From Bacteroidia bacterium (GTDB taxonomy: Bacteria > Bacteroidota > Bacteroidia > Bacteroidales > Paludibacteraceae), in assembly GCA_009929375.1 (NCBI GenBank), contig SAAO01000021.1, forward strand, positions 1 to 64,000: 64,000 nt of DNA, written 5' to 3'. The notes below the pieces were generated by a model that did no database searches, was not told the DNA's origin, and saw only the letters and a list, made by a program, of their open reading frames with translations. This document shows positions 1,885 through 61,968 of this stretch, one piece after another (the first letter of the stretch is position 1; every line of letters starts with the position of its first letter). A program made the position numbers and the translations under genes.

Positions 1885-3243
1885 ATGCAAAAATCAAATA
1901 TTTGTTTTATCGGTTTATTCTCGTTTGTAAATGTGGCATTTGCAGCCCATAAAGATGCTCGTCCCAATATTGTGGTAATAATGGCAGACGATTTGGGAAC
2001 AAACGAACTGAGTTGTTACGGAGGTAAAAATCTTCAAACGCCTAATATTGACAGACTGGCATCGGAAGGCATTCGGATGACTAATAATTATGCTTCTGCT
2101 GCCATGAGTGTACCAATCAGAGCATCACTGTATACCGGTTTATATCCTGCAAGACACGGTTCATATCAGAATCATAAAACATCCTATTGTGATATTAAAA
2201 GCGTTACACATTATTTGCCTGAGATTGGATATAGGGTTGCAAGAACAGGAAAGCAGCATTCCTTACCTTTGGATGTATATAAATTTGAGGAAATACCGGG
2301 TTTTGAGATAAATTGCGTGTCTCCTAAAGCTAATTTTGATACAAAAGGTATTTATGATTTCATAACGAAGAACAATGAGCCTTTTTGTCTTTACGTTTGC
2401 AGTACACATCCACATGTGCCCTGGACCTGGGGAAATCCTAATGAATTCGATACAGATAAAATAATATTACCTCCCAATGCTGTTGATAATAAGGAAACCA
2501 GAATTTTATACCGTAAATATCTGGCTGAAATAAGGGCTTTGGATACAGAGGTTGGAGCTGTGCTGAAAACACTGGAAAAAGCAGGAACTCTTGATAATAC
2601 TTTGATAATCTTTCTTGGTGAACAGGGCCCACAGCTCCCGTTTGGCAAATGGACCTGTTACCGGTACGGACAGAATAGCGCATTCATTGCAAGATATCCG
2701 GCTAAGATTAAACCTAAAACCACCAGTGATGCAATTGTACAGTACGAAGATATTTTACCGACTATGATGGATTTTGCAGGCGCTAAGCCTCTCAAAGACC
2801 TTGATGGAAGAAGCTTTTTAAATGTACTCTATGGTAAGGAAAAATCGCATCGTAAATGGTCTTATGGAATTCATAACAATATTCCGGAAGGAACCGCCTA
2901 TCCTATCAGGAGTATACAGGATAAGCGGTATAAGTTGATTGTAAATCTTCTTCCGGATTCCGGATATTTTGAAAAGCATTTAATGGATCTCAAAAACAGA
3001 AATCAGGTTTGGGCCAGTTGGGTTGAGAGTGCAGCTAAAGATTCTCATGCAAACTCGATTACAAACAGATATGTGAATCGTCCTGCTGTTGAATTGTATG
3101 ATTTATTAACCGACCCGTGGGAACTCAATAATCTTGCCGGACAAAAAACTTATAACCGGAAAATTAAAACAATGCGCAAAGCACTTGATTCATGGATGAA
3201 GCAACAGGGCGATAAAGGAGCACTCATGGATGTGGCATTTTAA
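1885..3243 (+). CDS. Exported sulfatase, heparan N-sulfatase-like
   Basis: Second sulfatase of the pair. An uncleaved-looking hydrophobic N-terminus ends near residue 21 (FAA). Metal ligands ADD are at 34-36. The active-site segment is SVPIR at 75-79, again serine type, followed by SLYTGLYPARHG. The later metal segment reads FLGEQGPQLPFGKWTCY, where the common DHG/DNG is EQG; this EQG..KWTCY form is typical of sulfohydrolases related to N-sulfoglucosamine sulfatase, so it is probably family-normal rather than a defect. It is downstream of and co-directional with the first sulfatase. Its stop codon overlaps the stop of the convergent GH16 gene within four bases, so there is no room for a terminator between them. 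Confidence 0.9.
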   Translation: MQKSNICFIGLFSFVNVAFAAHKDARPNIVVIMADDLGTNELSCYGGKNLQTPNIDRLASEGIRMTNNYASAAMSVPIRASLYTGLYPARHGSYQNHKTSYCDIKSVTHYLPEIGYRVARTGKQHSLPLDVYKFEEIPGFEINCVSPKANFDTKGIYDFITKNNEPFCLYVCSTHPHVPWTWGNPNEFDTDKIILPPNAVDNKETRILYRKYLAEIRALDTEVGAVLKTLEKAGTLDNTLIIFLGEQGPQLPFGKWTCYRYGQNSAFIARYPAKIKPKTTSDAIVQYEDILPTMMDFAGAKPLKDLDGRSFLNVLYGKEKSHRKWSYGIHNNIPEGTAYPIRSIQDKRYKLIVNLLPDSGYFEKHLMDLKNRNQVWASWVESAAKDSHANSITNRYVNRPAVELYDLLTDPWELNNLAGQKTYNRKIKTMRKALDSWMKQQGDKGALMDVAF

Positions 3244-5909
3244 TAAACCACAAAGCGTTTGCTGCTGACACCTTTTGTGCAGGTCAATTTTACGATGTAA
3301 TGTCCTGCAACTGGGCTCAGAAAATCTGAAATACTGTGTGACCCGGAGTCGAAATTCTGATTGTAAACTGCTAAACGAACACCCTGAATGCTGAAAATCT
3401 CGATTTTTACATCCGATGGTTCGGTAAGTTCGAACTCAACCACAAGTATTCCGGCTTTGCTGTACGCCTTTAGTTTATTGGCTGAAAGCGGAAGAAGGTC
3501 GAGAGCTGTTTGATACGAAACTCCGTTTGCAGTAATGGTTTTCACAATGTCGCCATAGGTGATTGTAATCTGCTCGTTTGTGATATTGCGGCTGCCATCG
3601 AAAGCGAGAGTGGTTGATACAATGCCATCGTTGACTTCATCGGGTGTGAACGCTGTTTTAGCCACTGTAATTCCTTCGGGAGTTTGAATGGTTACATTGT
3701 CGCGAATATATTTACCCTGAAAATTTACTGAACGTGTTTTATATGTTTCGCTGAAATTTACAGATGAGGGTGTAACTGACAGTTCGCCGGGTAAATAAAC
3801 TCCTTCCCGTACTTTTAATTCTCCCACAGCGCCCAACATTTTTGTAGTGTTGTCGAATGTGAGATAGTAAGTTCCATCCATTACAGGTCTGAATACCATT
3901 GCAAAATCGTTCAGTTTGAAAATGTCCGTTTTTTTGATGGTTTTGTGATGTGCTGCCAGTTGAAGTCCTTTGTTGTCGGCCTGATTATTCACAGATATAC
4001 TGTACACAGAATGACTGTCACCATTGGCCTGCCAGCCATAAACGCCGTTTACAGTATAGACTTTTCCGCCTTCGAGTTCTACCGGAAAAGCATAATTGCT
4101 GCCCGGGGCAAGACTGCCATCCCAACGCAAATGAAGCAAGCGTCCGGTCCATTTTTGGTCATTGAGGCTATAACTGCTTCCGGAAGTCTGGTCGCTGTAA
4201 CGCACGTCCGAAGTGGCATTGGCAGCACGCCATGTAACCGATCCGTTGGCTGTCCATCCGAATTTGTCGGGTTCAGAGCCTGTTCCTGTCAGTCCGTTGG
4301 CATCCCAGCCTTCAGCCAGATTATTGGTTGAGAATTGTTTCTGCGATGTTTTAACACGTACCGATCCTGTATATCCGGAACCTGTAATGACAATACTTCT
4401 CAGACCACTGAATGCAATTCCATTGAATGTGGCTGTGATTACAACTCCGTTTTCGGCTTCCTGCGGTGTGATGCGGTTTTTGTCGACTGATATTCCCTCA
4501 GGTGTATTCAATATGAGGTCACTACTCAGTTTGTGTGCTGTAATTCTGAAGGTATGAATACGCTTAGTCAGATTGAATGCAAGTTCATTGCGCGAAATGC
4601 TTACAAAAGGTTCGTCGGTTTCGTACACTTCCACATTGTCGATGCGCGAACCTGCAGCGCCTGAAAGAAAAATCCCGCTTTTCAGACTACCTGCGGTTGC
4701 AGGTGCTAAAAAAGTAAATTCCACAGCCTGCCATTGATTCAAATTTGAGCTAATGGTTTGTGAACTAATGCTGCTGCCGTTTGTGTCGTTCGCGCTAAGG
4801 ACCACATCGCTACCATTGGCATAAACCATGGCTTTTACACGATATGTTTTTCCTTCGCTGAAATTTATATACTGTGCATATGTTCCTCCGGTAATTTCGG
4901 CGCAATAATTTCCGCAATAAACTTTGGTCAGGTCGCGTAAAAGTTTTCGCGAACCAGTGCCGTCGGGGCTTACTTTATTACATTCGGGGTCGGGAGCCAG
5001 ATTGCCTGTAGGCTGAAGTGGCTGGTAACAACTACCTGTACTGTTGTCGGGCTGATACACTCTGAAATAGTCCACATAATATGTAATAGGATAATTGGGC
5101 TTCGAAGGATCACCACCATTTACGCCTCCCAAAGCAAGATTCAGCAAAACATAATGATTGCGGCTTGTAAAGGGGTTTGAACCATCAGAATTGAGAGTTC
5201 TGTAAGTCTCAATGGTATTGAGAAGTTCGCCATCAACATACAGTTTAATAAACTCGGGTGTCCAGTCCATTACCCAGATATGATATTTATTTACCCAGTT
5301 AGCATCTTTGCCTTTGAAATATGACATGGGTGTTTTGCTTGAATCCCATGTGCCTACCCACGCCTGATTCGAGCCCCAGGCTGCATTTGCCAGAATGCCG
5401 TCGCCATAGTATTCGAGAATGTCAATTTCGCCGTTTGTGGGCCAGTCTCCCCAGTTCCCAAGTGTCCAAATGGCCGGCCATGCTCCTGTGGTAGCCGGTA
5501 TTTTAGCCCTGATTTCGAAACGTCCGTATTTCCACGACTGTTTGCCACGTGTATGAATGGCTGCAGAAGTATATTCGGCGTATTCGAGGCTTTTTTTCCA
5601 GTCACTGCTGCCCGATTGATAATTTGGATTTTTTACACGTTCTCTGCGTCCGGTTATCTGTAATGTGCCGTTTGATACATTTGCATTGTCGGACTGATAC
5701 CATTGATGTTCTTCATTGCGCACAAATCCTGTTTCGTAGCTCCAGTTCGTCGACGAAGGTTTTCCGGTATAATTAAATTCGTCGGACCAGGATAATTTGT
5801 AGCCCGGAAGTACTGCAGGAGGGTTTGGGTCAGGACTGTAGGGGTCAACCTGAGCAAATAATTGAAACTGAAACAGAACTAAAATTAATAGTAAATGAAA
5901 TTTTCTCAT
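3240..5909 (-). CDS. T9SS-secreted multidomain GH16 beta-glucanase (laminarinase-like)
   Basis: Large exported glycoside hydrolase. Signal peptide 1-20, then a GH16 catalytic domain at about 35-290 with the diagnostic ExDxxE motif EIDILE (E161 nucleophile, D163, E166 acid/base); the surrounding WPAIWTLG and KLYVDGE point to beta-1,3-glucanases. After it come a CBM4/9-like module (about 300-430), an Ig-like module (about 435-515), a second jelly-roll-like module (about 515-705), a second copy of the Ig-like module (about 708-795), and a T9SS type A sorting domain at the C-terminus (about 808-889; KIEIFSIQGV then HYIVKL). The protein should therefore be released or anchored at the cell surface by type IX secretion. 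A possible -7 box (TATTTTTG, complement of 5959-5966) lies 50 bp upstream, but the nearest TTTG gives only a 15-bp spacer. Confidence 0.92.
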   Translation of the reverse strand: MRKFHLLLILVLFQFQLFAQVDPYSPDPNPPAVLPGYKLSWSDEFNYTGKPSSTNWSYETGFVRNEEHQWYQSDNANVSNGTLQITGRRERVKNPNYQSGSSDWKKSLEYAEYTSAAIHTRGKQSWKYGRFEIRAKIPATTGAWPAIWTLGNWGDWPTNGEIDILEYYGDGILANAAWGSNQAWVGTWDSSKTPMSYFKGKDANWVNKYHIWVMDWTPEFIKLYVDGELLNTIETYRTLNSDGSNPFTSRNHYVLLNLALGGVNGGDPSKPNYPITYYVDYFRVYQPDNSTGSCYQPLQPTGNLAPDPECNKVSPDGTGSRKLLRDLTKVYCGNYCAEITGGTYAQYINFSEGKTYRVKAMVYANGSDVVLSANDTNGSSISSQTISSNLNQWQAVEFTFLAPATAGSLKSGIFLSGAAGSRIDNVEVYETDEPFVSISRNELAFNLTKRIHTFRITAHKLSSDLILNTPEGISVDKNRITPQEAENGVVITATFNGIAFSGLRSIVITGSGYTGSVRVKTSQKQFSTNNLAEGWDANGLTGTGSEPDKFGWTANGSVTWRAANATSDVRYSDQTSGSSYSLNDQKWTGRLLHLRWDGSLAPGSNYAFPVELEGGKVYTVNGVYGWQANGDSHSVYSISVNNQADNKGLQLAAHHKTIKKTDIFKLNDFAMVFRPVMDGTYYLTFDNTTKMLGAVGELKVREGVYLPGELSVTPSSVNFSETYKTRSVNFQGKYIRDNVTIQTPEGITVAKTAFTPDEVNDGIVSTTLAFDGSRNITNEQITITYGDIVKTITANGVSYQTALDLLPLSANKLKAYSKAGILVVEFELTEPSDVKIEIFSIQGVRLAVYNQNFDSGSHSISDFLSPVAGHYIVKLTCTKGVSSKRFVVY

Positions 5910-43862: not shown

Positions 43863-44792
43863 TTAATAGATTGCCCCTTTTGCAGCCAGCAGAGTGTTTT
43901 TTAGCAACGATATAATGGTCATTGGACCTACGCCACCGGGCACAGGAGTGATATATGAAGCTTTCGGAGCTACTTCGTCGAAAGCCACATCGCCTTTAAG
44001 TTTAAAGCCCGATTTTGTTTCGGTTGAAGGCACGCGGGTTGTACCCACATCGATAATCACAGCACCTTCTTTTACCATATCGCCTTTCAGAAACTCAGGT
44101 TGTCCGAGCGCGGCAATGATAATGTCGGCCTGCAGACATATTTCTTTCAGGTTTTTGGTGCGACTGTGACAAACGGTAACAGTAGCATCGCCCGGATAGC
44201 CTTTTTGCATCATAAGCGATGCTACAGGTTTTCCCACAATGTTGCTGCGACCAATTACCACACAGTTTTTACCGGCTGTGGGAATTTCGTAACGGCGAAG
44301 CAATTCGATAATTCCGGCAGGAGTGGCCGATACATAACAGGGCAGCCCAATGGACATGCGTCCCACATTGATAGGGTGGAAGCCATCCACATCTTTGCGG
44401 TAGTCAATAGCTTCGATTACTTTTTGCTCCGAAATGTGTTTGGGCAATGGAAGTTGTACAATGAAGCCATCAAGATCGGTGTTTTTGTTTAGTTCATCGA
44501 TTTTGGCCAGCAGTTCCTGTTCAGTCACATCGGCTTCAAAAGTGATTTTGGTAGAGGTGAACCCAACCTGTTCGCACGATTTTACTTTGTGAGCCACATA
44601 GGTTTCGCTTCCTCCATCGTGCCCCACGATAATCACAGCCAGGTGCGGACGTTTTTTACCGGCAGCTATCATTGCTTCTACTTCAGCTGCAATTTCTGTT
44701 TTTATCTGTTCCGAAATGGCTTTGCCATCGATTAGAACCCCTAAATCCCCTGAAGGGGACTTTGGTTTGGTGTTGTTATTTAAATCGATCAT
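43863..44792 (-). CDS. folD: Methylene-THF dehydrogenase/cyclohydrolase FolD
   Basis: Bifunctional one-carbon enzyme (5,10-methylene-THF to 10-formyl-THF). Core motifs: [10 protein letters not shown] with the catalytic lysine, [32 protein letters not shown], and [14 protein letters not shown] near the end. The N-terminus is odd: the usual enzyme begins at about [11 protein letters not shown], but here some 19 residues precede it ([19 protein letters not shown]), and the [11 protein letters not shown] part is encoded by a GC-rich palindromic repeat (44738-44759). The repeat therefore seems to have inserted in frame next to the start codon. Confidence 0.95.
44738..44759. repeat. 22-bp GC palindrome, copy 1 (inside folD)
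   Basis: CCCCTAAATCCCCT followed by a GGGG arm: a diverged copy of the family whose core is CCCCCTAACCCCCT. It is translated as part of the FolD N-terminus and forms an inverted pair with copy 2. Confidence 0.75.
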
Positions 44793-44808
44793 TTTTATAA
44801 GTTTTATT

Positions 44809-44827
44809 CCCCTTTAGGGGTTAGGGG
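44809..44827. repeat. GC palindrome, copy 2 (between ffh and folD)
   Basis: CCCCTTTAGGGGTTAGGGG, in inverse orientation to copy 1. It ends three bases before the ffh stop codon. Confidence 0.75.
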
Positions 44828-44830
44828 TCC

Positions 44831-46150
44831 TTATCTTCTTTTTCCCATTTTCAGTTTTCCCTGCTGCATGGTTGCCATGCGCATCATTTTGCTTGTTTGC
44901 TCAAATTGTTTCAGCAATCGGTTTACTTCCACAATAGTGGTTCCGCTTCCTTTGGCAATACGGTTTTTGCGGCTTCCGTTCAGTATCGATGGATTTTCGC
45001 GTTCTTTCGGAGTCATTGAATGTATAATAGCTTCAATTCCTTTGAATGCATTTTCGTCAATATCCACATCTTTCAGCGCTTTGCCCATACCGGGAATCAT
45101 GGCTGCAAGGTCTTTGATATTACCCATTTTCTTGATCTGGGCAATCTGCGAAAGGAAGTCGTTGAAGTCGAACTGGTTTTTAGCAATCTTTTTCTGCAGG
45201 CGACGGGCTTCTTCTTCGTCGTATTGTTCCTGAGCACGTTCCACCAACGATACGATATCACCCATGCCGAGAATACGGTCGGCCATACGTTCAGGATAGA
45301 ATACGTCGAGCGCATCCATTTTTTCGCCGGTACCCACAAACTTAATTGGTTTGTTTACCACCGAGCGAATCGAGAGAGCCGCACCACCACGTGTATCACC
45401 ATCGAGTTTTGTCAGAATTACACCGTCGAAGTCGAGACGGTCGTTGAATTCCTTGGCAGTGTTTACTGCATCCTGTCCGGTCATTGAGTCGACCACAAAC
45501 AAAATTTCCTGTGGCTGAATGGCTTTTTTGATGGCTGCAATTTCGGTCATCATCATTTCGTCAACAGCCAAACGTCCTGCTGTATCCACAATCACCACAT
45601 CGTGACCAAATTCTTTGGCATGTTTGATGGCTGCTTGTGCAATAGCTACAGGGTTTTTGCTTTCGGGCTGCGAAAATACAGGTACACCAAGTTGTTCGCC
45701 AAGTACTTTCAACTGTTCGATGGCTGCAGGACGATATACGTCGCAGGCTACCAGTAATGGTTTTTTACCACGTTTGTTTTTGAGCAGGTTGGCCAGTTTA
45801 CCCGAGAATGTGGTTTTACCCGAACCCTGTAGACCTGACATTAAAATTACTGCCGGACTGCCTTTGAGGTTGATGTCCACGCTCTGACCACCCATAAGCA
45901 TAGCCAGTTCGTCGTGCACAATTTTTACCATCAACTGTTGCGGTTTCAGGGCAGTAAGCACATTTTGTCCAATGGCCTTGTCTTTTACAGTATCGGTAAA
46001 TGTTTTGGCTGTTTTGTAGTTTACGTCGGCATCCAAAAGGGCTTTTCGCACATCTTTCAGGGTTTCGGCCACATTGATTTCGGTGATTTTACCTTCACCT
46101 TTCAGTATTTTAAACGACCTCTCAAGTCTTTCGCTTAATGATTCGAACAT
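44831..46150 (-). CDS. ffh: Signal recognition particle protein Ffh
   Basis: GTPase that binds signal sequences with 4.5S RNA. N domain at the start (MFESLSERLERSFKILKG), G1 GLQGSGKTTFSGKLA, DTAGRL, TKLDGD, and a C-terminal methionine-rich M domain (MTPKERENPSILNGSRKNRIAKGSG, MMRMATMQQGKLKMGKRR). Start placed at MFESLS (46150). The open frame goes on to 46192, but that 5' part comes from a palindromic repeat and is not conserved. Confidence 0.97.
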   Translation of the reverse strand: MFESLSERLERSFKILKGEGKITEINVAETLKDVRKALLDADVNYKTAKTFTDTVKDKAIGQNVLTALKPQQLMVKIVHDELAMLMGGQSVDINLKGSPAVILMSGLQGSGKTTFSGKLANLLKNKRGKKPLLVACDVYRPAAIEQLKVLGEQLGVPVFSQPESKNPVAIAQAAIKHAKEFGHDVVIVDTAGRLAVDEMMMTEIAAIKKAIQPQEILFVVDSMTGQDAVNTAKEFNDRLDFDGVILTKLDGDTRGGAALSIRSVVNKPIKFVGTGEKMDALDVFYPERMADRILGMGDIVSLVERAQEQYDEEEARRLQKKIAKNQFDFNDFLSQIAQIKKMGNIKDLAAMIPGMGKALKDVDIDENAFKGIEAIIHSMTPKERENPSILNGSRKNRIAKGSGTTIVEVNRLLKQFEQTSKMMRMATMQQGKLKMGKRR

Positions 46151-46163
46151 AATGGTAGAATAA

Positions 46164-46180
46164 CCCCTGCCCGTGAGGGG
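46164..46180. repeat. GC palindrome, variant copy before ffh
   Basis: CCCCTGCCCGTGAGGGG sits 13 bp upstream of the ffh start. It keeps the CCCCT...AGGGG frame but the middle differs from the main family. Confidence 0.45.
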
Positions 46181-46302
46181 AATAACATGCATTAATGATT
46201 AAAAAAACTCCTCAGGGCTAAGGAATTTCAACGGATTGCAAAAGTACAAAAAAATAAAGAAAATGCCAACGGCAAAGAATACAGAATATGTTTAAAAATG
46301 AA

Positions 46303-53185: not shown

Positions 53186-54550
53186 ATGTACGATTTAATC
53201 ATTATCGGTGGTGGTCCTGCCGGATATGTAGCTGCCGAACGTGCAGGGCATAAAGGGCTGAATGTGCTCGTTTTCGAAAAAAATAAAATGGGTGGTGTGT
53301 GTCTCAACGAAGGTTGCATTCCAACCAAAACGCTGATTTACAGTGCAAAAACCTATGAGAATGCATTGCATGGCGACAAATACGGCGTGAAAGCCGAATC
53401 GGTAACTTTTGATTTCGGCAAAATAATGGCACGCAAAAACAAGGTGGTACGCAAACTGGTGGCCGGTGTCGAAGCTAAAATGAAAATGCATCATGTGACT
53501 GTGGTGAAAGGTGAAGCCATGATTCAGCGTCGCAGCGAAAACGGTGTGGAAGTGACTTGTGGCGGCGAAACTTACGTTGGTAAGAACCTGCTGATCTGCA
53601 CCGGCTCCGAAGCTTTTGTTCCGCCTATTCCCGGCATAGCCGAATCGGGCGATATTATACTTACCAACCGCGAAATCCTTGATTTGAAGGAACAGCCTCA
53701 AACACTGGTAATTATAGGTGGAGGCGTGATCGGGATGGAATTTGCAAGTTTTTACAACAGCCTGGGCACTTCGGTGACTGTGGTGGAAATGCTTCCGGAA
53801 ATTCTGGGGCAAAACGACTACGAAATTTCGGCAATGTTGCGCGAAATGTATGCTAAAAAAGGAATAAACTTCCACCTGAATGCCAAAGTGGTAAAAGTGG
53901 AAGGAAATAAAGTAACTTTCGAGAAAGACGGTGAAACACAAACAATCGAAGGAGAAAAAATTCTTGTAAGTGTGGGTCGTCGTGCTGTCACAAAAGGTTT
54001 CGGACTCGAAAATCTGAATGTGGAGCTTGAGCGTGGTGGCATTAAGGTGGACGAGAAAATGCGTACCAATGTTCCCAATGTCTTTGCTGCCGGCGATGTA
54101 ACCGGATTTTCACTGCTCGCTCATACAGCCAGCCGCGAAGGCGAAGTGGTGGTAAACAACCTTACCGGCCGCGCCGACCGTATGCGTTACAATGCAATTC
54201 CCGGTGTGGTTTATACAAACCCTGAAGTTTCGGGCGTGGGTGAAACCGAAGAATCAGCCAAAGCCAAAGGTCTTGACTTTAAACTTGCAAAATTGCCAAT
54301 GGCATATGCCGGACGTTTTGTGGCCGAGAACGAAGGTGGTAATGGACTTTGCAAAGTGCTTATTGGTGCAAAATATGGCGAAGTGATCGGCGTTCACATG
54401 ATTGGAAATCCTTCGAGTGAAATGATTTATGGAGCCTGCATGGCCATCGAACAGGAACTGACATTAGCGCAATTGGAAGAAGTGGTTTTTCCACATCCAA
54501 CTGTAAGCGAGATATTTAAAGAAACAATATTTAGCCCCCTAACCCCCTGA
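53186..54550 (+). CDS. lpdA: Dihydrolipoamide dehydrogenase (E3)
   Basis: FAD disulfide oxidoreductase that re-oxidises the lipoyl arm. FAD motif LIIIGGGPAGYVAAERA, redox pair GGVCLNEGCIPTK (C39 and C44), NAD motif IIGGGVIGMEFASFY, FAD motif FAAGDVTG, and the C-terminal HPTVSEIF with the active-site histidine. Start at ATG 53186 (MYDLIII); the open frame begins at a TTG at 53168. The last residues SPLTP and the stop codon are supplied by a GC-rich palindrome, so the C-terminus was probably reshaped by repeat insertion. Confidence 0.95.
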   Translation: MYDLIIIGGGPAGYVAAERAGHKGLNVLVFEKNKMGGVCLNEGCIPTKTLIYSAKTYENALHGDKYGVKAESVTFDFGKIMARKNKVVRKLVAGVEAKMKMHHVTVVKGEAMIQRRSENGVEVTCGGETYVGKNLLICTGSEAFVPPIPGIAESGDIILTNREILDLKEQPQTLVIIGGGVIGMEFASFYNSLGTSVTVVEMLPEILGQNDYEISAMLREMYAKKGINFHLNAKVVKVEGNKVTFEKDGETQTIEGEKILVSVGRRAVTKGFGLENLNVELERGGIKVDEKMRTNVPNVFAAGDVTGFSLLAHTASREGEVVVNNLTGRADRMRYNAIPGVVYTNPEVSGVGETEESAKAKGLDFKLAKLPMAYAGRFVAENEGGNGLCKVLIGAKYGEVIGVHMIGNPSSEMIYGACMAIEQELTLAQLEEVVFPHPTVSEIFKETIFSPLTP

Positions 54551-54556
54551 AGGGGG
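54535..54556. repeat. 22-bp GC palindrome, copy 3 (end of lpdA)
   Basis: CCCCCTAACCCCCT then GAAGGGGG: the best-conserved form. It encodes the last E3 residues and the stop codon (54548-54550) and pairs with copy 4 about 95 bp on. Confidence 0.85.
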
Positions 54557-54648
54557 AATTATGCAAGTTAGTCTTCATAATTTTCAGTTTAAAGGAAAAG
54601 GGAATGTGAAATTATATTTATAACAAAACAAAACTAACATCTCTTATT

Positions 54649-54670
54649 CCCCCTTCAGGGGGTTAGGGGG
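54649..54670. repeat. 22-bp GC palindrome, copy 4 (before the E1 gene)
   Basis: Inverse of copy 3, 17 bases before the E1 start codon. The transcript could fold copies 3 and 4 together into a long stem around the spacer. Confidence 0.85.
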
Positions 54671-54686
54671 CAGTTAACTAAACATT

Positions 54687-57146
54687 ATGCCAAAAGTACA
54701 ATTCATTGATCCGGCGGAAGCCCGGAAGCCCGGTTTTGTGGAATTTCAACCCATTCCGGTAAATCAGTATCAGAAAACGGTAAACGACGAAAAGGAAAAC
54801 TTTACCGACGAAGAATTTAAAGCCATTTATCATGACATGGCGCTGATTCGTGAGTTTGAGACAATGCTCAATCTTATCAAAACCAAAGGTGAATACAATG
54901 GAACACAGTACAATCACCCCGGCCCGGCTCACTTGTCAATCGGACAGGAATCGGCTGCGGTGGGTATGGCATGGACGTTAACCGTCGAAGACTTTATTTT
55001 TGGTAGTCACCGATCGCACGGCGAAATTCTGGCCAAAGGTATGTCGGCAATTCACAAACTCAGCGACAAGGAACTGACTGATATCATGGAATCATTTTTC
55101 GATGGAGCAGTACTGGAAGTGGTAAAAAAAGATTTCACCGGAACAACGAAAGAACTGGCTCGCCGATTCCTTGTTTACGGAACGTTAGCCGAAATTTTTG
55201 CCCGTGAAACAGGTTTCAACCGTGGTTTGGGTGGTTCAATGCACGCTTTCTTTACTCCGTTTGGTGTTTATCCAAACAATGCGTTGGTTGGTGGCTCGGG
55301 CGATATTGCTGTGGGAGCTGCTCTTTATAAAAAAGTTAACCGTAAGCCGGGTATGGTAGTTGCCAATATCGGCGATGCTTCAATGGCTTGCGGACCTGTT
55401 TGGGAAGGGATTACCTTTTCGGCAATGGATCAGTTTAACCAACTTTGGGAAGGCGATATGAAAGGTGGTTTGCCTGTGATTATCAATATTATGAATAATC
55501 AATACGGAATGGGTGGACAAACCTGTGGCGAAACCATGGGTTACGGTATTGCTGCCCGTATTGGTGCTGGCGTAAATGCCGACCAGATGCACGCTGAACG
55601 TGTGGATGGTTACAATCCGCTGGCTGTGATTGATGCTTACAAACGTAAACGTAAAATTATTGAAGAAAAACGCGGTCCGGTTTTGCTGGACGTACTTACA
55701 TACCGTTATAGCGGTCACTCACCTTCGGATGCATCGTCGTATCGTTCGAAAGAAGAAGTGGAAGCCTGGGAAAAACAGGACTGTATTGCTTCGTATGGCG
55801 AACAACTGATTGATGCAAAAGTGGCTTCTCAGACCGACCTGGAGGCAGTTCAGGCTGATATCAAAGCATTGATTTACGAAATGTTCCTGAAAGCTATCGA
55901 TCCTGTGATTTCTCCATTGATGCAAAATCCTGAGAAAATAGGTGATATGATGTTTTCAAATGGTTCGGTGGATTCGTTCAGCAATGCTAAACCCGATGTG
56001 TTAATGCCGTTGGAAGAAAATTCCCGCGTAAAGAAAATTGCTGCTAAAGAACGTTTTGCATTCGACAAAGATGGCAAACCATTCAGCAAAATGAAACAAT
56101 ATCAGCTGCGCGACGGTATTTTCGAAGCCATGATGGATCGTTTCTACAAAGATGCTTCGCTGATTGCTTATGGTGAAGAAAACCGTGACTGGGGTGGCGC
56201 TTTTGCTGTGTATGGTGGTATGACCGAAGCTTTGCCTTATCACCGTTTGTTTAATTCTCCGATTTCCGAAGCTTCTATTGTGGGTACAGCCATTGGTTAT
56301 GCCATGTGTGGCGGACGTGTAGTTCCTGAAATTATGTATTGCGACTTCCTGGGCCGTTGCGGTGACGAAGTTTTCAATCAGCTTCCGAAATGGCAGGCAA
56401 TGAGTGGTAATGTGTTGAAAATGCCGGTTGTTCTTCGCGTGTCGGTTGGCTCAAAATACGGAGCACAACACTCGCAGGACTGGACTTCACTGGTGGCTCA
56501 CATTCCCGGAATCAAAGTTTGCTTCCCCGTAACTCCTTACGATGCCAAAGGCTTGATGAATGCAGCTCTTCAGGGAACCGACCCTGTGATTTTCTTCGAA
56601 AGTCAGCGTATTTACGAAATCGGCGAGCAATTCCACGAAGGTGGTGTGCCCGAAGGTTACTACGAAATTCCTTTCGGCGAACCGGATGTAAAGAAAACAG
56701 GTAATGATATAACATTCCTCACTATTGGTCATACGCTTTATCCGGCGTTGGCTGCTGCTAAAGAACTGGAAGAAAAATACGGTATGACTGCCGAAGTAAT
56801 TGATGCCCGTTCGCTGGTGCCATTCAATTATGAAAAAGTAATTGCCTCCGTGAAAAAAACAGGTAAAATTATTGTGGCCGGTGATGCTACAGCCCGTGGT
56901 TCGTTCCTCAATGATTTTGCAGCAAGCATTAATCAGCTTTGTTTTGATTATCTGGATGCACCGGTTTGTGTACTTGGTTCGCGCAACTGGATTACACCGG
57001 CTTATGAGTTGGAAAAATCTTTCTTTGCTCAACCTTCGTGGTTCCTCGATATGATCAACGAGCGTATTCAACCGTTGAATGGCTATATTGCAGGTCAGAA
57101 TTTTACTGATGCTGAGTTCGTACGCAGATCGAAAATGGGAGTATAA
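54687..57146 (+). CDS. Fused alpha-beta E1 of a 2-oxoacid dehydrogenase
   Basis: Thiamine-diphosphate decarboxylase of the dehydrogenase complex, with alpha and beta chains in one protein. Alpha part (about 40-420): GSHRSHGEIL, ThDP motif from IGDASMACG (G229, D230) to NNQYGMGG (N270, N271). Beta part (about 480-800): RDGIFEAMMDRFYKD, GEENRDWGGAFAV, SEASIVGTAIGYAMCGGRVVPEIMY and SRNWITPAYELEKSFF. At 819 residues it is roughly 120-150 longer than a plain alpha plus beta sum; extra segments lie in the alpha part (about 120-165) and between the two halves. Order E2-E3-E1 is also unusual. Pyruvate or another short 2-oxoacid is the likely substrate. Confidence 0.9.
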   Translation: MPKVQFIDPAEARKPGFVEFQPIPVNQYQKTVNDEKENFTDEEFKAIYHDMALIREFETMLNLIKTKGEYNGTQYNHPGPAHLSIGQESAAVGMAWTLTVEDFIFGSHRSHGEILAKGMSAIHKLSDKELTDIMESFFDGAVLEVVKKDFTGTTKELARRFLVYGTLAEIFARETGFNRGLGGSMHAFFTPFGVYPNNALVGGSGDIAVGAALYKKVNRKPGMVVANIGDASMACGPVWEGITFSAMDQFNQLWEGDMKGGLPVIINIMNNQYGMGGQTCGETMGYGIAARIGAGVNADQMHAERVDGYNPLAVIDAYKRKRKIIEEKRGPVLLDVLTYRYSGHSPSDASSYRSKEEVEAWEKQDCIASYGEQLIDAKVASQTDLEAVQADIKALIYEMFLKAIDPVISPLMQNPEKIGDMMFSNGSVDSFSNAKPDVLMPLEENSRVKKIAAKERFAFDKDGKPFSKMKQYQLRDGIFEAMMDRFYKDASLIAYGEENRDWGGAFAVYGGMTEALPYHRLFNSPISEASIVGTAIGYAMCGGRVVPEIMYCDFLGRCGDEVFNQLPKWQAMSGNVLKMPVVLRVSVGSKYGAQHSQDWTSLVAHIPGIKVCFPVTPYDAKGLMNAALQGTDPVIFFESQRIYEIGEQFHEGGVPEGYYEIPFGEPDVKKTGNDITFLTIGHTLYPALAAAKELEEKYGMTAEVIDARSLVPFNYEKVIASVKKTGKIIVAGDATARGSFLNDFAASINQLCFDYLDAPVCVLGSRNWITPAYELEKSFFAQPSWFLDMINERIQPLNGYIAGQNFTDAEFVRRSKMGV

Positions 57147-57152
57147 CTTATA

Positions 57153-57228
57153 ACCACTAAGGCACTGAGAACACTTAGTTTCACAAAGTATTTATTGTGT
57201 TTCTTTGTGCCCTTAGTGCCTTAGTGGT
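57153..57228. repeat. Hairpin-forming CACTAAGGCACT repeat
   Basis: ACCACTAAGGCACT (57153-57166) and its perfect inverse (57215-57228) flank the E1-PHP gap. The same words appear singly at 14555-14590. Confidence 0.75.
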
Positions 57229-57242
57229 AAAAATAAAATATT

Positions 57243-58418
57243 ATGATAAAAGTAAACGCTCACCTGCATACGCCAAATTCATTCAGTGCTTTCGATTCAA
57301 TTGATCAGGCACTTGATATGGCTGTTGCCGAAGATGTTAAAGTGGTTGGCATCAATGATTTTTACAGCACAGCTGGTTATCAGGAGTGGGCTGATGGCTG
57401 CAAAGTTCGTGGCTTGTATCCACTTTTCAATATCGAGCTGATTTCACTCAATGAAGCCGATCAGAAAGCCGGTGTTCGTGTCAACGATCCCGGAAATCCC
57501 GGCCGTGTATATATCAGTGGAAAAGGACTTTCGTACCCGTTTAAACTTGCCGAACCTTATGCATCGCAGCTTGCCGAAGTGGTTAAGGAATCGAACAGTC
57601 AGGTGGAAGCCATGTGTGGCAAAGTAAACGAAATTCTTTTAAATATAAATGCCGGATTTTCAGTTGATTTTGAATGGATCAAAAACGATTTGGCTAAAGG
57701 TCTGATTCGTGAACGTCATTTGGCAAAAGCAATTCGTTTGAAAGCTTATGAATATTGTAATCAGAATCCGCTGGATATCAGAATCCTTTTTCATAAACTT
57801 TTTGCAGGAAAAGAACTGAAATCGGAGGTGACAGATCATGCCGGTGTTGAAAACGAAATTCGTGCAAACCTGCTCAAAGCGGGTGGTGGTGCTTTTGTTC
57901 CCGAAGATCCCAAGGCATTTTTGCCCATGCAAACCGTTTGCGAAATAATTGTGGCTGGTGGTGGTATTCCAACTTACCCTTTTCTGGCTGACGATGCCAA
58001 GGGTGGTTACACCGATTTCGAAGGCGATCTGGAACGTGTGGCAAAGCAACTGACCGAGCGTGGTTTTCATTCGGTGGAATTTATCACGACCCGTAATGGT
58101 TTGGAATTGCTTGAGAAATACGCTTCGTATTTACATGATCAGGGATTTGTGGTGACATTTGGTAGCGAGCACAATACGCCGGCAATGGAGCCGATAGAAC
58201 TTTTTGCACGAAATAGCACCCCACTTACTGACCGTTTGATGCAAATCAACTACGAAGGCGCTTGTGTCATTGCAGCACATCAGCATTTGGTGGCTCAGGG
58301 TTTACGTGGATATGTGGATGCCAATGGACAGGCTGACAGAAGTAAACGGAAAGAGTTTGTAAAACTGGGGGATGAGTTAATAACAGCCCTGCCCCCCAAC
58401 CCCCTAAAGGGGGAGTAA
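57243..58418 (+). CDS. PHP-domain protein, probable metal-dependent phosphoesterase
   Basis: The N-terminus NAHLHTPNSFSAF carries the PHP metal pair (H7, H9); further ligand candidates are D39 in GINDFYS (usual form GITDH), E65 in FNIELIS, the histidine in GSEHNTP and the one in AAHQHL. The middle (about 110-225) is a helical insertion not seen in small PHP phosphatases. No polymerase or histidinol phosphatase context is present. Lying between E1 and an aldolase gene, it may act on a phosphorylated intermediate, but no function is established. The last residues ALPPNPLKGE come from a GC palindrome. Confidence 0.8.
   Translation: MIKVNAHLHTPNSFSAFDSIDQALDMAVAEDVKVVGINDFYSTAGYQEWADGCKVRGLYPLFNIELISLNEADQKAGVRVNDPGNPGRVYISGKGLSYPFKLAEPYASQLAEVVKESNSQVEAMCGKVNEILLNINAGFSVDFEWIKNDLAKGLIRERHLAKAIRLKAYEYCNQNPLDIRILFHKLFAGKELKSEVTDHAGVENEIRANLLKAGGGAFVPEDPKAFLPMQTVCEIIVAGGGIPTYPFLADDAKGGYTDFEGDLERVAKQLTERGFHSVEFITTRNGLELLEKYASYLHDQGFVVTFGSEHNTPAMEPIELFARNSTPLTDRLMQINYEGACVIAAHQHLVAQGLRGYVDANGQADRSKRKEFVKLGDELITALPPNPLKGE
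58392..58413. repeat. 22-bp GC palindrome, copy 5 (end of the PHP gene)
   Basis: CCCCCCAACCCCCT then AAAGGGGG, translated as PPNPLKG at the C-terminus. Inverted pair with copy 6. Confidence 0.85.
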
Positions 58419-58463
58419 GAGAGTAAATCTTGAATTTTTACAGATATTAACAAACTTGAATAA

Positions 58464-60527
58464 ATGAATAATACAGAAAATAATGAAACTCGCTCTCTAC
58501 TCCCCCTTGAGGGGGTTGGGGGGCTTATCGAAATATCACAATTCTACGGTCGCGATAGCCGTTTTGTGATTGCAGGTGGTGGAAATACTTCCTACAAAAA
58601 TGCTGAAAAAATCTGGGTGAAAGCCAGTGGCTCGTCGTTGGCTACCATTACCGAAGATGGTTTTGCGGTGCTCGATCGTGCCAAACTCAACCTCATGTCC
58701 GACAAAGTGTACAGCGCAAATGCAGCTGAGCGTGAGGAGCAAGTTAAAAACGATTTGGCCGATGCAACTATTACCAAAGGCAAACGTCCATCGGTTGAGA
58801 CATCGATGCACAATGTGATTGATTATGCATTTGTAGTGCATTTGCACCCAACGCTTGTAAACGGATTAATGTGCGCCAATAATGCTGAAAGCGATTTGAA
58901 AAAACTTTTCGGAGCAAAAGCATTGTACATTGAATATACCGACCCGGGTTATGTGCTTTTCAAAAAAGTGGAAGATGCCATTAAAGCATATCGTGTTGAA
59001 TATAAAGAAGAACCACAAATTATATGGTTGCAGAATCACGGGATTTTTGTGGCTGCCAATACAATCGATGAAATAAAAGTTATTTATAATGAAGTGCTTG
59101 AGAAACTTGCCCCCCAACCCCCTAAAGGGGGAGATAGTGCAAATCTCAATGTTTTTAAAAATGAGGAAGAGTGCTCAGCTCTCTCTCCTTCGGAGAGGGC
59201 TGCGGAGAGGTGTCTGCCTGCTATTCGCATGATGCTTTCAAAAGATGGTCTGAAAACTCTGAAAGTGCGCAAAAATGCATTGGTAAAACATTTTTACGAC
59301 ACAAAAGAAGCGCAGGCTAAAATTGCAAAACCATTTACTCCGGATGCAATTGTGTATTGCAAATCGAACTATCTATTTAGCCCCCTAACCCCCACAGGGG
59401 GGGATGAAGAAAGCATAAACAACTTTCTTGCTGATATAAAAGTTCGCATTGATGATTTTACTCAAAAAAACGGCTATCAACCTAAAGTTATTCTTATCAA
59501 AGGAATTGGCTTAGTGGCTGTGGGCGACAATGCTGCTCAGTGCGATATTATTCTGGATGTATTTGAGGATGCAATGAAAATTGCTTACTATACAGAATCG
59601 TTTGGCGGTCCGCATCCGATGACACAGGAGCAAATTGATTTTATCGACAACTGGGAAGTGGAAAATTACCGTCGCAGTGTGGCAGCAGGAGCAACTAAAG
59701 GGCGTGCAGAAAACAAAACCATTATTGTTACCGGAGCCGCTATGGGTTTTGGCGAGGGTATTGCCCGTTGTCTTTTGAAGGAAGGTGCTAATATCGTTGT
59801 CGCAGATTTGAACGAAGAAGTAGGAAGGGCAACTGTTGCTAAATTCAACTTATTGGCCAAAAGTAACCGCGCCATTTTTGTAAAAACCAATGTAAGCGAG
59901 ATTCCGGCCATTGAACAATTGCTTCATAAAACCATTTGCAATTTCGGCGCTGTTGATTGTTTTATAAGCAATGCAGGTGTGCTTCGTGCGGGTGGACTGG
60001 ACGATATGACACCTGAAGATTTTGAATTTGTGACGAAAATAAATTACAATGCATATTTCTATTGTACCAAAGTGGTGAGCAAGGTAATGAAGTTGCAAAC
60101 CAAATATGCGGGCTCTGACTATTATGCCGATATTATTCAGATAAATTCAAAATCGGGTTTACGCGGTAGCAAGGCCAACTTTGCGTATGCTGGTGGTAAA
60201 TTTGGTGGCGTTGGTCTGACTCAGTCTTTTGCGCTTGAACTGGCTCCTTTCCGTATCAAGGTGAATTCGATTTGTCCGGGAAATTTCTATGAAGGACCAC
60301 TTTGGAGCGATCCTGAACATGGACTTTTCGTTCAGTATTTAAATGCAGGAAAAGTTCCGGGTGCCAAAACCGTTGAAGATGTAAAAGAATTTTATCTGGC
60401 TCAGGTTCCTATGAAAAAAGGTTGCTCACCCGAAGATGTAACCAAAGGAGCATTATACCTGATGGATCAATGTGGCGAAACAGGACAGGCTTTACCAATT
60501 ACGGGCGGACAGGTAATGCTGAATTAA
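58464..60527 (+). CDS. Bifunctional class II aldolase / short-chain dehydrogenase (RhaEW/YuxG-like)
   Basis: N-terminal class II aldolase (about 20-400) with AGGGNTSYK, catalytic E112 (SVETSMHN), zinc ligands H126 and H128 (VVHLHPT) and QNHGIFV; C-terminal SDR (about 420-687) with VTGAAMGFGEG, INSKSG, YAGGK and VNSICPG. This matches the rhamnulose-1-phosphate aldolase/lactaldehyde dehydrogenase fusion, which splits a 6-deoxyketose 1-phosphate into DHAP and lactaldehyde and oxidises the latter. The rhamnose kinase and isomerase are not here, so another deoxy-sugar is possible. Four repeat-coded peptides lie in frame, at about residues 13-20, 216-223, 240-250 and 306-314, in the aldolase half or its linker. 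Confidence 0.9.
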   Translation: MNNTENNETRSLLPLEGVGGLIEISQFYGRDSRFVIAGGGNTSYKNAEKIWVKASGSSLATITEDGFAVLDRAKLNLMSDKVYSANAAEREEQVKNDLADATITKGKRPSVETSMHNVIDYAFVVHLHPTLVNGLMCANNAESDLKKLFGAKALYIEYTDPGYVLFKKVEDAIKAYRVEYKEEPQIIWLQNHGIFVAANTIDEIKVIYNEVLEKLAPQPPKGGDSANLNVFKNEEECSALSPSERAAERCLPAIRMMLSKDGLKTLKVRKNALVKHFYDTKEAQAKIAKPFTPDAIVYCKSNYLFSPLTPTGGDEESINNFLADIKVRIDDFTQKNGYQPKVILIKGIGLVAVGDNAAQCDIILDVFEDAMKIAYYTESFGGPHPMTQEQIDFIDNWEVENYRRSVAAGATKGRAENKTIIVTGAAMGFGEGIARCLLKEGANIVVADLNEEVGRATVAKFNLLAKSNRAIFVKTNVSEIPAIEQLLHKTICNFGAVDCFISNAGVLRAGGLDDMTPEDFEFVTKINYNAYFYCTKVVSKVMKLQTKYAGSDYYADIIQINSKSGLRGSKANFAYAGGKFGGVGLTQSFALELAPFRIKVNSICPGNFYEGPLWSDPEHGLFVQYLNAGKVPGAKTVEDVKEFYLAQVPMKKGCSPEDVTKGALYLMDQCGETGQALPITGGQVMLN
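58502..58523. repeat. 22-bp GC palindrome, copy 6 (N-terminus of the aldolase/SDR)
   Basis: Inverse of copy 5. In frame, it encodes LPLEGVGG just before the conserved aldolase start. Confidence 0.85.
59110..59131. repeat. 22-bp GC palindrome, copy 7 (inside the aldolase/SDR)
   Basis: CCCCCCAACCCCCT then AAAGGGGG, encoding PQPPKGG at about residues 216-223. Same sense as copy 5, different reading frame. Confidence 0.85.
59181..59211. repeat. Second palindrome family (CTCTCCTTCGGAGAGG) inside the aldolase/SDR
   Basis: CTCTCTCCTTCGGAGAGG followed by GCTGCGGAGAGG: a separate hairpin word, encoding SLSPSERAAER-like residues (about 240-250). Confidence 0.7.
59381..59403. repeat. 22-bp GC palindrome, copy 8 (inside the aldolase/SDR)
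   Basis: CCCCCTAACCCCCA then CAGGGGGGG, encoding SPLTPTGG at about residues 306-314. Confidence 0.8.
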
Positions 60528-60537
60528 AAAAAACTTG

Positions 60538-60559
60538 CCCCCTAACCCCCTAAAGGGGG
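60538..60559. repeat. 22-bp GC palindrome, copy 9 (after the aldolase/SDR)
   Basis: CCCCCTAACCCCCT then AAAGGGGG, 10 bases past the stop codon. Inverted pair with copy 10. Confidence 0.85.
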
Positions 60560-60660
60560 AATTAAGCAAGAATGTGTAGGCTTTTTAATGCTGAGAAAAA
60601 ATATTAATACAAATTAAAAATACCCGATTGAATTTTTTCAATGACGAAACTAATTCAATT

Positions 60661-60682
60661 CCCCCTTTTGGGGGTTAGGGGG
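60661..60682. repeat. 22-bp GC palindrome, copy 10 (before the SorE-like gene)
   Basis: CCCCCTTTTGGGGG then TTAGGGGG, 11 bases before the next start codon, inverse to copy 9. Confidence 0.85.
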
Positions 60683-60693
60683 CAGATTTATAT

Positions 60694-61968
60694 ATGAAAA
60701 CAACAGCAATCCGTTTATATGGCAAAAAAGATCTTCGGATGGAGACTTTTGAATTGCCCCAAATTAAAGATGATGAGATTCTTGCAAAAGTAGTTTCTGA
60801 CTCCCTGTGTATGTCTTCGTACAAGGCTTCGACCCAGGCTACCGACCATAAACGAATTCCCAACGATATTGCCGAAAATCCGATTATCATTGGACATGAG
60901 TTTGCAGGCGAACTTGTGGAAGTGGGAGCAAAGTGGGCGCATAAATTCAAAGCCGGCGATAAATTTTCCATTCAACCTGCACTTTATTACGAAGATGGTC
61001 CTGTCGGTGTGCTGAGTGCGCCGGGCTACAGCTATCGTTATATTGGCGGCGATGCAACCTACGTGATTATTCCGAAAGAGGTGATGGAGAAAAACTGTCT
61101 TTTGGCCTATCATGGCGAAGGATTTTATCCCGCATCGCTGGCTGAGCCGCTATCGTGTGTGATTGGGGCTATGCATGCAAACTACCACACGACACCTGGA
61201 AGTTATGTGCACAAAATGGAAATTGTGGCTGGTGGTAAAATGGCCATCCTGGCAGGCGTAGGACCTATGGGACTGGCTGCCATCAACTATGTGCTTAGTC
61301 GCAACGATCGCAAACCGTCACTTTTGGTGGTGACTGATGTGGATCAGACGCGTCTCGACAGAGCTGCCACTTACTTTACTGTGGAGCAGGCCGCTGCACG
61401 TGGAATTGAACTGAAGTATGTAAATACCGGAAAAATGCAAAATCCGGTGGATGAACTTAAAGCAATTAGTGATGGAACAGGTTTCGATGATGTGTTTGTA
61501 TTTGCTCCTGTAAAACCCGTTGTGGAGCAGGGCGATGCAATTCTGGCTTTTGATGGCTGTCTCAACTTTTTTGCTGGTCCCGGCGATCCGGCTTTTAGCG
61601 CAAACATGAATTTTTACAACGTTCATTATGCATACACGCACATTGTGGGCACCAGTGGTGGCAATACCGACGATATGGTGGAGGCACTTGAGTTAATGTC
61701 CGGGGGATTAGATCCTGCAGCTTTGGTAACGCACATTGGCGGACTCGATGCTGTAATTGAAGCGACTAATCATCTGCCTGAAATACCCGGAGGAAAAAAA
61801 CTGATTTATACACATCTCCGAATGCCGTTGACAGCCATTTCCGATTTTGCAAAACTTGGTGAAACTAAGGCCGTTTTCAAAACATTAGCCGGAATTTGCG
61901 ATAAAAACTTAGGTTTGTGGAGTGTGGAAGCGGAATCGTATTTGCTGGCGAACGCAGATAAACTCTGA
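60694..61968 (+). CDS. Zinc-type alcohol dehydrogenase, L-sorbose-1-phosphate reductase-like
   Basis: Medium-chain dehydrogenase. Catalytic-zinc residues C39 (SDSLCMSS) and H68-E69 (IIGHEFAGE) are present, but the four-cysteine structural-zinc lobe is missing. The nucleotide fold is ILAGVGPMGLAAINYVL. The length (424) and features such as the long loop GPVGVLSAPGYSYRYIGGDATY fit the SorE branch that interconverts ketose and alditol phosphates. It follows the aldolase/SDR gene and ends at a terminator, so it probably prepares or drains a sugar phosphate of the same pathway. Confidence 0.85.
   Translation: MKTTAIRLYGKKDLRMETFELPQIKDDEILAKVVSDSLCMSSYKASTQATDHKRIPNDIAENPIIIGHEFAGELVEVGAKWAHKFKAGDKFSIQPALYYEDGPVGVLSAPGYSYRYIGGDATYVIIPKEVMEKNCLLAYHGEGFYPASLAEPLSCVIGAMHANYHTTPGSYVHKMEIVAGGKMAILAGVGPMGLAAINYVLSRNDRKPSLLVVTDVDQTRLDRAATYFTVEQAAARGIELKYVNTGKMQNPVDELKAISDGTGFDDVFVFAPVKPVVEQGDAILAFDGCLNFFAGPGDPAFSANMNFYNVHYAYTHIVGTSGGNTDDMVEALELMSGGLDPAALVTHIGGLDAVIEATNHLPEIPGGKKLIYTHLRMPLTAISDFAKLGETKAVFKTLAGICDKNLGLWSVEAESYLLANADKL

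Follow-up and report, generated by a model that had tools for sequence, protein, structure and literature searches.

What is the palindromic word that recurs around gene borders in this stretch of DNA, how does it come to be read as protein, and what might move it? The window, i.e., the whole 64-kb stretch that was analyzed, holds eight matches to CCCCCTAACCCCCT with at most one mismatch at 54535-60682, and 100 dinucleotide shuffles hold none. The first-pass annotation, which had reported eight close copies within about 6 kb, is right on this point.

Arms and Inverted Pairs in the Window

Each arm follows the layout CTG-CCCCC-TAA-CCCCCT-nAA-GGGGG-A, that is, a G/C block that is repeated after a linker and then followed by a loop and by its own inverted copy. 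Paired arms stand inverted to each other and enclose about 70-120 bp of A/T-rich DNA, and the content of this spacer varies between copies, as had been claimed; a good part of the copies has no clear partner arm. A whole-window inverted-repeat scan with a threshold of at least 30 bits returns four rows, namely the pairs 54534-54671, 58391-58524 and 60536-60684 and a cross-match 58501..59132. Three of the four inverted pairs initially proposed are thus clean in the scan, while the fourth, at 44.7-44.8 kb, consists of mixed arms and is absent from the scan output. The further copies noted at 44.7-44.8 kb are real, but they are the sister words ACCCCTAACCCCTAAAGGGG and AAGTCCCCTTCAGGGGATTTAGGGG and not the same word.

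The pairs in the window occupy the gaps between stop and start codons, where they may contribute the final codons of a gene, or the start codon and initial residues of the following one. The three scanned pairs are nuclease-less and have no strand assigned. In the 138-bp pair at 54534..54671, the left arm forms the final codons of the 53168-54550 gene (..FSPLTP and stop) and the right arm stops 15 bp upstream of the next ATG (54687). The 134-bp pair at 58391..58524 lies across a gene border: its left arm encodes the C-terminus of the 57243-58418 gene (PPNPLKGE and stop), the ATG of the next gene falls in the spacer, and the right arm is translated as LLPLEGVGGL. The 149-bp pair at 60536..60684 is framed by a stop codon at 60527 and the following ATG at 60694. 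On the minus strand, the mixed-arm pair at 44735..44829 (bounds set by eye) supplies a start codon and 19 N-terminal residues; it is situated between the genes at 44831-46192 and 43863-44792, which by eye encode a signal-recognition GTPase and FolD, respectively.

The gene at 58464..60527 (plus strand) encodes a fusion of a class II aldolase and a short-chain dehydrogenase (SDR), and carries both inserts and an element-supplied N-terminus. A mixed-arm pair at 59109..59211 (plus strand, pairing read by eye) lies in frame within it, with the window word as left arm (PQPPKGG) and the sister word CTCTCCTTCGGAGAGGGCTGCGGAGAGG as right arm. A single arm (SPLTPTGG) is in frame at 59380..59403 on the same strand, where the gene is 7 residues longer than its orthologs.

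Two further kinds of repeat were seen. An inverted pair of another family (AACCACTAAGGCACTGAG..CTTAGTGCCTTAGTGGT) lies at 57153-57232 between a stop codon and the next ATG, and similar pairs (AACCACAATAGGCACATAGG) occupy gene borders in relatives, e.g., at L045 and L047 (both by eye). At L083 (2252-2353) and L110 (around 2098), an extra hairpin (e.g., CCTCCGCCACGGCGGACAGGCTCTGAAGG) sits within the arms and possibly represents nested repeats.

Translation of the Word

The word is read as protein in several frames, as the first-pass annotation had noticed: PPNPLKGE ends the 57243-58418 gene, PLEGVGG belongs to the start of the 58464 gene, and PQPPKGG (59110) and SPLTPTGG (59381) are internal. 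The suggested comparison with orthologs came out in favor of an element: the arm-coded residues are missing at those places among 13 aligned rows, although the loop at 59110 differs in length between them. Relative to its orthologs, the window gene carries a palindromic repeat inserted in frame.

The proposal that the word is selected to stay open in many frames is not supported. The commonest form of the word contains stops in two of the three frames on each strand, and the form with G in the loop has one open frame out of three on one strand and two on the opposite strand. In stretches chosen around the word, arms located at least 60 codons inside a frame number 4/36 in the own genome (the genome of the window), 3/60 in G002, 2/21 in G016 and 2/17 in G438. 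Stop avoidance as a general property of the word is not supported by these counts and by the closed commonest form. Gene-internal copies are variants open in the frame used which, together with the small number of arms deep in frames, fits survivorship.

Abundance in the Genome, Genus and Phylum

In the own genome (3.87 Mb, 122 contigs), 69 places match with at most two mismatches, whereas the reversed pattern matches at 6; copies of a sister word, CTGCCCCCAACCCCCTAAAGGGGGCTGTGACATTGTGCA, account for some of the 69. Together with the complete lack of matches in window shuffles, this upholds the expectation of more copies than composition predicts. The exact 22-mer is found in 26 of 48 genus genomes at 0-111 copies each, and the control pattern never. 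In a sample of the phylum, it is found in 7 of 395 genomes, the own genome included, and in 3 of 171 genera. At two borders beside the 58464-60527 gene, eight relatives inspected by eye differ: some have other inverted pairs, others a small gene or another neighbor, or little.

Downstream of the ortholog of the window gene in L046, L048 and L049, a small frame resembles, by eye, the four-helix-bundle/23S rRNA IVP family. Its intergenic spot matches the position of the palindrome pair in the window.

A Nuclease Between the Arms

At C92:106238-106662, the own genome contains a 425-bp unit composed of an arm, a DUF559 (Vsr-like) nuclease and an inverted arm, and an equivalent unit of 427 bp is found in the genus genome G016. 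Both are open end to end and in frame within frames of 1387 aa (own) and 1392 aa (G016). The host of the own unit is phosphoribosylformylglycinamidine synthase (PurL) according to NCBIfam, above two curated cut-offs, and the PurL profile is split into two stretches around the insert. This insert of about 140 aa begins with LPPNPLKGE, ends with SPFRGLGG, and consists of arms and DUF559 only. Since the same arms flank DUF559 in the own genome, the window word represents the terminal arm of a larger nuclease-bearing element. A second own DUF559 gene is stand-alone and lies between sister-word arms. We count it against a nuclease-element reading that the own genome has only two DUF559 genes for 69 word copies.

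All 41 aligned nuclease domains match PF04480, and they also match PF18741 at E 1e-3. The columns T18, E21, W25, D50, F51, E61, G64, H67 and R92 are invariant among them, with E21, D50, E61 and H67 as putative active-site residues. Searched against the PDB, the nuclease profile finds 3hrl, an endonuclease-like protein, and 3r3p, a mobile intron protein. The latter match has an E-value of 3e-7 over profile positions 40-111, and we take 3r3p to be I-Bth0305I. In the sections available of one study, I-Bth0305I represents the EDxHD family (PMC3943268).

DUF559 Loci and Their Hosts

The genus contains 99 DUF559 matches in 37 of 48 genomes, of which 45 lie in open frames of at least 400 aa (39 of 88 for matches with E below 1e-20). 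We analyzed two overlapping sets of loci. The first combines 30 of the 99 genus matches with 30 from a longer phylum list. The second, from named genomes, comprises the best 80 of 550 matches; its query was built mainly from in-frame genus copies and the set is thus biased towards in-frame copies. At least seven loci of the second set have arms identical to those of loci in the first set, and the two are therefore not additive. Open frames of at least 400 aa surround 29/60 and 71/80 loci, respectively.

Comparison of the two 250-bp flanks yields inverted repeats scoring 32 bits or more at 30 of the 60 DUF559 loci and at none of 215 displaced controls, and at 29 of 80 loci in named genomes compared to 1 of 460 controls. 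The arm plan pointing outward on both sides is found at 13/60 loci (0/147 controls) and 22/80 loci (0/307 controls), and in the opposite orientation at 4/60 and 0/80. Any arm unit is present at 32/60 and 41/80 loci versus 7/147 and 9/307 controls. By these tests, about half or more of the DUF559 loci have no clear inverted arms.

Hosts were assigned with references in which DUF559 had been masked. The 60 loci comprise 31 stand-alone genes and inserts in IleRS (5), MetH, LeuRS and HsdR (4 each), ValRS (3), PurL (2), UvrA (1), HsdM (1, named by eye) and other proteins (5). In the set of 80, MetH (27) and IleRS (19) prevail, followed by PurL (5), ValRS (3), UvrA (2) and LeuRS (1), with 15 other hosts and 8 stand-alone genes. 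One or two examples each of IleRS, ValRS, LeuRS, MetH, PurL, UvrA and HsdR score above curated NCBIfam cut-offs, and the host profiles are split around DUF559. A Pfam scan of ten further frames places DUF559 beside HsdR with GIY-YIG, a DNA methylase, an AMP-binding enzyme, a radical SAM/TRAM protein, GcpE (with DUF559 at the end of the protein), an ABC ATPase, a poly(A) polymerase-type protein, a CoA transferase, an adenine deaminase and DegT. Cultured carriers include Flavivirga rizhaonensis RZ03 (IleRS) and Flavobacterium hercynium DSM 18292 (MetH).

Some loci hold more than one insert or arm. The HsdR at L276:175-3315 contains both GIY-YIG (residues 251-317) and DUF559 (443-547) in frame, and an AMP-binding, acetyl-CoA-synthetase-like enzyme (L382:1066-3984) has two in-frame DUF559 domains. 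The IleRS of G034 (L225:742-3327) carries a nuclease insert at site 1, a mini insert (KSPKGDLGG) and, at site 2, the beginning of a second nuclease. At the stand-alone DUF559 locus L232 (G456), at least six near-identical arms ACATCCCCTTTAGGGGCTTGGGG lie within about 1.3 kb.

The arm counts also bear on another, unlikely reading, in which the pairs are REP/REPIN-type elements, i.e., two inverted hairpins mobilized by RAYT, a Y1 HUH transposase. The anatomy of paired hairpins is shared and the word mostly lies outside long frames. Y1_Tnp matches occur in 26 of 30 searched genomes, with five in the own genome, where one RAYT gene is 1.2 kb from a word copy; in G016, a word pair is found directly upstream of the start of a weak Y1-transposase-like frame (L164, ~3000-3750). 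However, the five own RAYT genes (L073-L077) have other hairpins of their own nearby, as judged by eye. In a RAYT set with 11 of 12 loci located (L032 was not) plus the G016 frame, the arm plan on both sides is seen at none of 16 different RAYT genes, and any arm unit at only 1 of 16, namely the weak frame L164, compared to 32/60 and 41/80 of the DUF559 loci. Moreover, RAYT leaves the in-frame nuclease inserts unexplained. For the short copies, mobilization of the RAYT type is conceivable in view of the G016 pair and of the own RAYT gene 1.2 kb from a word copy.

Empty and Filled Sites

Related genomes offer empty and filled versions of the same sites. At ileS site 1, compared as DNA in 16 of 30 loci, the segment measures 57 bp in eight loci and 507 and 513 bp with nuclease in two. 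In four others, it is 81-108 bp longer and has visible arms of other families, and in the remaining two it is 75 bp and 30 bp longer with no clear arms. At ileS site 2, it measures 78 bp in 18 loci and 477 and 480 bp with nuclease in two, further rows having ended before the landmark. Across 14 rows, the purL site is 96 bp in seven and 510-522 bp in five, with L286 and L299 also filled. A single IleRS loop is therefore empty, nuclease-bearing or occupied by short inserts with other arms in sister species.

Every length difference between empty and filled sites is divisible by three, as expected of survivorship. Compared to empty alleles, filled ones are missing about 4-9 variable codons (by eye), suggesting that insertion was not clean or that codons were lost afterwards. 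Inverted arms are present, and a target-site duplication was not seen by eye at the empty and filled sites compared. In the empty site 2 of L333 (G436), GATTTGGGGGGCTTTTTCCCC resembles the end of a right arm (GATTTAGGGGGCTTTTTCCC in L249) and may be the scar of a lost element.

With the empty sites, the genome excess, the genus distribution and orthologs without the arm-coded residues, the initial suggestion of a spreading, partly translated palindromic element is supported.

Spread of the purL Insert

To follow one site, a host tree was built from purL sequence upstream of the site in 29 of 48 genus genomes; G032 was excluded owing to N at the site, and G033, by frame length a likely eighth carrier, was left out. 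The insert is present in 7 of the 29 genomes and requires seven changes on the host tree, a number no smaller than that for shuffled labels; at least five of the seven are forced by well-supported branches. Carriers as one clade are rejected (p-AU 2e-70). G002 has the insert and its near relative G011 (93.0% over 842 bp) has none, and each carrier genome has a single purL match. DMRLTF stands directly before the insert in all seven carriers versus none of the 22 empty alleles, as would be seen after co-conversion.

Synonymous divergence (dS) of the insert is lower than that of the host in 18 of 21 carrier pairs, which are non-independent (e.g., 0.44 vs 1.29 for G034-G016). The insert has a pN/pS of 0.12-0.29, compared to 0.04-0.17 for the host part, and its dN exceeds host dN in most carrier pairs, which suggests purifying selection on the insert that is weaker than on PurL. 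Furthermore, nucleases group by insertion site, with 33 changes versus 92.9 in shuffles. The purL nucleases form one group (support 80). Few columns, numerous weak forks and a number of near-copies limit this analysis of grouping by site. Scattered carriers, a shared flank, low insert dS and grouping by site are marks of homing. The purL site thus appears to combine site-specific presence and absence with horizontal spread and co-conversion.

These patterns weigh on the view that the arms are passive palindromes like those of Rickettsia, selected for translation, and that the DUF559 domains are ordinary fusions useful to the host. Tolerated in-frame insertions and purifying selection on DUF559 inserts accord with it. 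Yet an insert that is patchily present at one site next to a shared flank, dS values that are mostly lower in the insert than in the host and grouping by site all run against it, as do the IleRS loop that is variably empty, nuclease-filled or short-insert-filled in sister species and the closure of the commonest word form in most frames; we regard this view as very improbable. Regulatory or terminator hairpins kept between operon genes would suit the position between stop and start codons but are scarcely credible, given that the two borders beside the window gene differ in eight relatives (by eye), copies lie inside frames, and an Rfam scan of the window at gathering scores matched no family.

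A Proposed Element Family

We put the probability at roughly three in four that the arms belong to small mobile elements of Bacteroidota, comprising in-frame, unspliced homing-endonuclease elements and nuclease-less short forms. The full-size form would measure about 400-450 bp, with an arm, a DUF559/Vsr-like nuclease frame and an inverted arm, each arm being planned as word, short linker, word again, loop and inverted word. Since it is open end to end, such an element can be accommodated in frame by a variable loop of an essential enzyme and translated there, presumably as part of the host protein and with no intein or intron. The nuclease would cut the empty allele, and repair would copy the element together with some flanking host sequence. 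We infer this homing-type spread from the site-specific lineages, scattered distribution and co-conversion.

As in the window, the short forms would comprise inverted pairs of about 100-150 bp as well as single arms. Most would insert between stop and start codons, and some would extend or interrupt frames. They may be moved in trans by the nuclease, or by another enzyme acting on hairpins. Short copies and full-size elements agree in their arms, in arm orientation and, in ileS, in the loop that they occupy. In the case of a sister word, the similarity (by eye) between stand-alone DUF559 loci (L232, L233) and nuclease-less pairs next to orthologs of the window gene (L049, L050, L052) continues beyond the arm, in the form of gaGACgAAaGTAACT ahead of TCCCC. 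On this basis, the assignment of short copies and nuclease elements to one family is well supported. Comparison of the short copies of the window word with the purL element gives 62 matches (E 1e-4), none of which extends more than 8 bp past the arm. The arms are thus all that the two have in common, and an origin of the short copies by simple deletion from the purL element is not supported. One weak protein match, at L100 (E 0.38), hints at a remnant.

A broader claim would be that of a new class, in which homing endonucleases reside unspliced in essential genes, their palindromic ends and nuclease making up a single open frame that becomes an additional domain of the host protein, while their nuclease-stripped ends multiply and rewrite gene borders, start codons and termini across Bacteroidota. 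On the sequence comparisons presented here, we consider the case for and against this to be evenly balanced.

Comparison With Known Systems

Inteins place an in-frame nuclease within conserved essential proteins and form gene-specific lineages, and they possess a splicing domain and splice-junction residues. The present elements are alike in the in-frame nuclease within essential proteins and differ in that the insert consists of arms and DUF559 only. An intein is rejected for the insert of about 140 aa, which has no splicing domain or splice-junction residues (junctions judged by eye). Nor are group I or II introns seen: at Rfam gathering scores, six loci, five of them with in-frame inserts, gave no match, and the frame is open throughout.

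I-Bth0305I is treated among the group I intron homing endonucleases in the accessible portion of a published account (PMC3943268). The EDxHD (Vsr-like) homing endonucleases resemble the present nucleases in the profile match to 3r3p and, it seems, in site-specific spread with co-conversion; here, however, no intron or intein is seen and the palindromic ends are translated. The same portion says that self-splicing introns or inteins enable homing endonucleases to reside in highly conserved genes (PMC3943268), whereas here they appear unspliced in IleRS, ValRS, LeuRS, MetH, PurL, UvrA and HsdR across a phylum. It becomes a testable question how a working enzyme can tolerate a selfish nuclease as part of itself. 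VsrA of Caulobacter, in the extract available of its description, is a DUF559 protein and a predicted mismatch-repair endonuclease (PMC12907096); it shares the Pfam domain, but its predicted role differs from that of a mobile insert. A search of the open-access literature by title or abstract start, with subscription journals mostly outside its scope, found no description of DUF559 mobile elements. With due caution, the combination of an unspliced in-frame nuclease, translatable palindromic ends and short dispersed relatives may be categorically new. For annotation, DUF559 'domains' and odd N- or C-termini in such enzymes would then be element material.

REP/REPIN elements with RAYT and MITEs are similar in having inverted palindromic pairs dispersed between genes. 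In contrast to REP/RAYT, the arm plan here goes with DUF559 rather than with RAYT among the loci tested. CGTC-tagged REPs are palindromic repeats found also in Bacteroidetes and, according to the part of the source at hand, have no dedicated transposase (PMC3733652); the likeness to the present arms is one of description.

Rickettsia palindromic elements (RPEs) are palindromic repeats of about 150 bp that lie in frame inside genes, as summarized in the available segment of a recent paper (PMC10969869). Translated, in-frame palindromic repeats are common to both systems, again likened by description. That segment makes no mention of a nuclease partner for RPEs (PMC10969869), whereas the full-size members described here contain DUF559. 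In addition, the majority of the present short copies are found outside long frames. The present elements offer a candidate source for translated palindromic repeats and, if our reading is true, a mobilizer for RPE-like palindromes, whose engine has so far been unknown.
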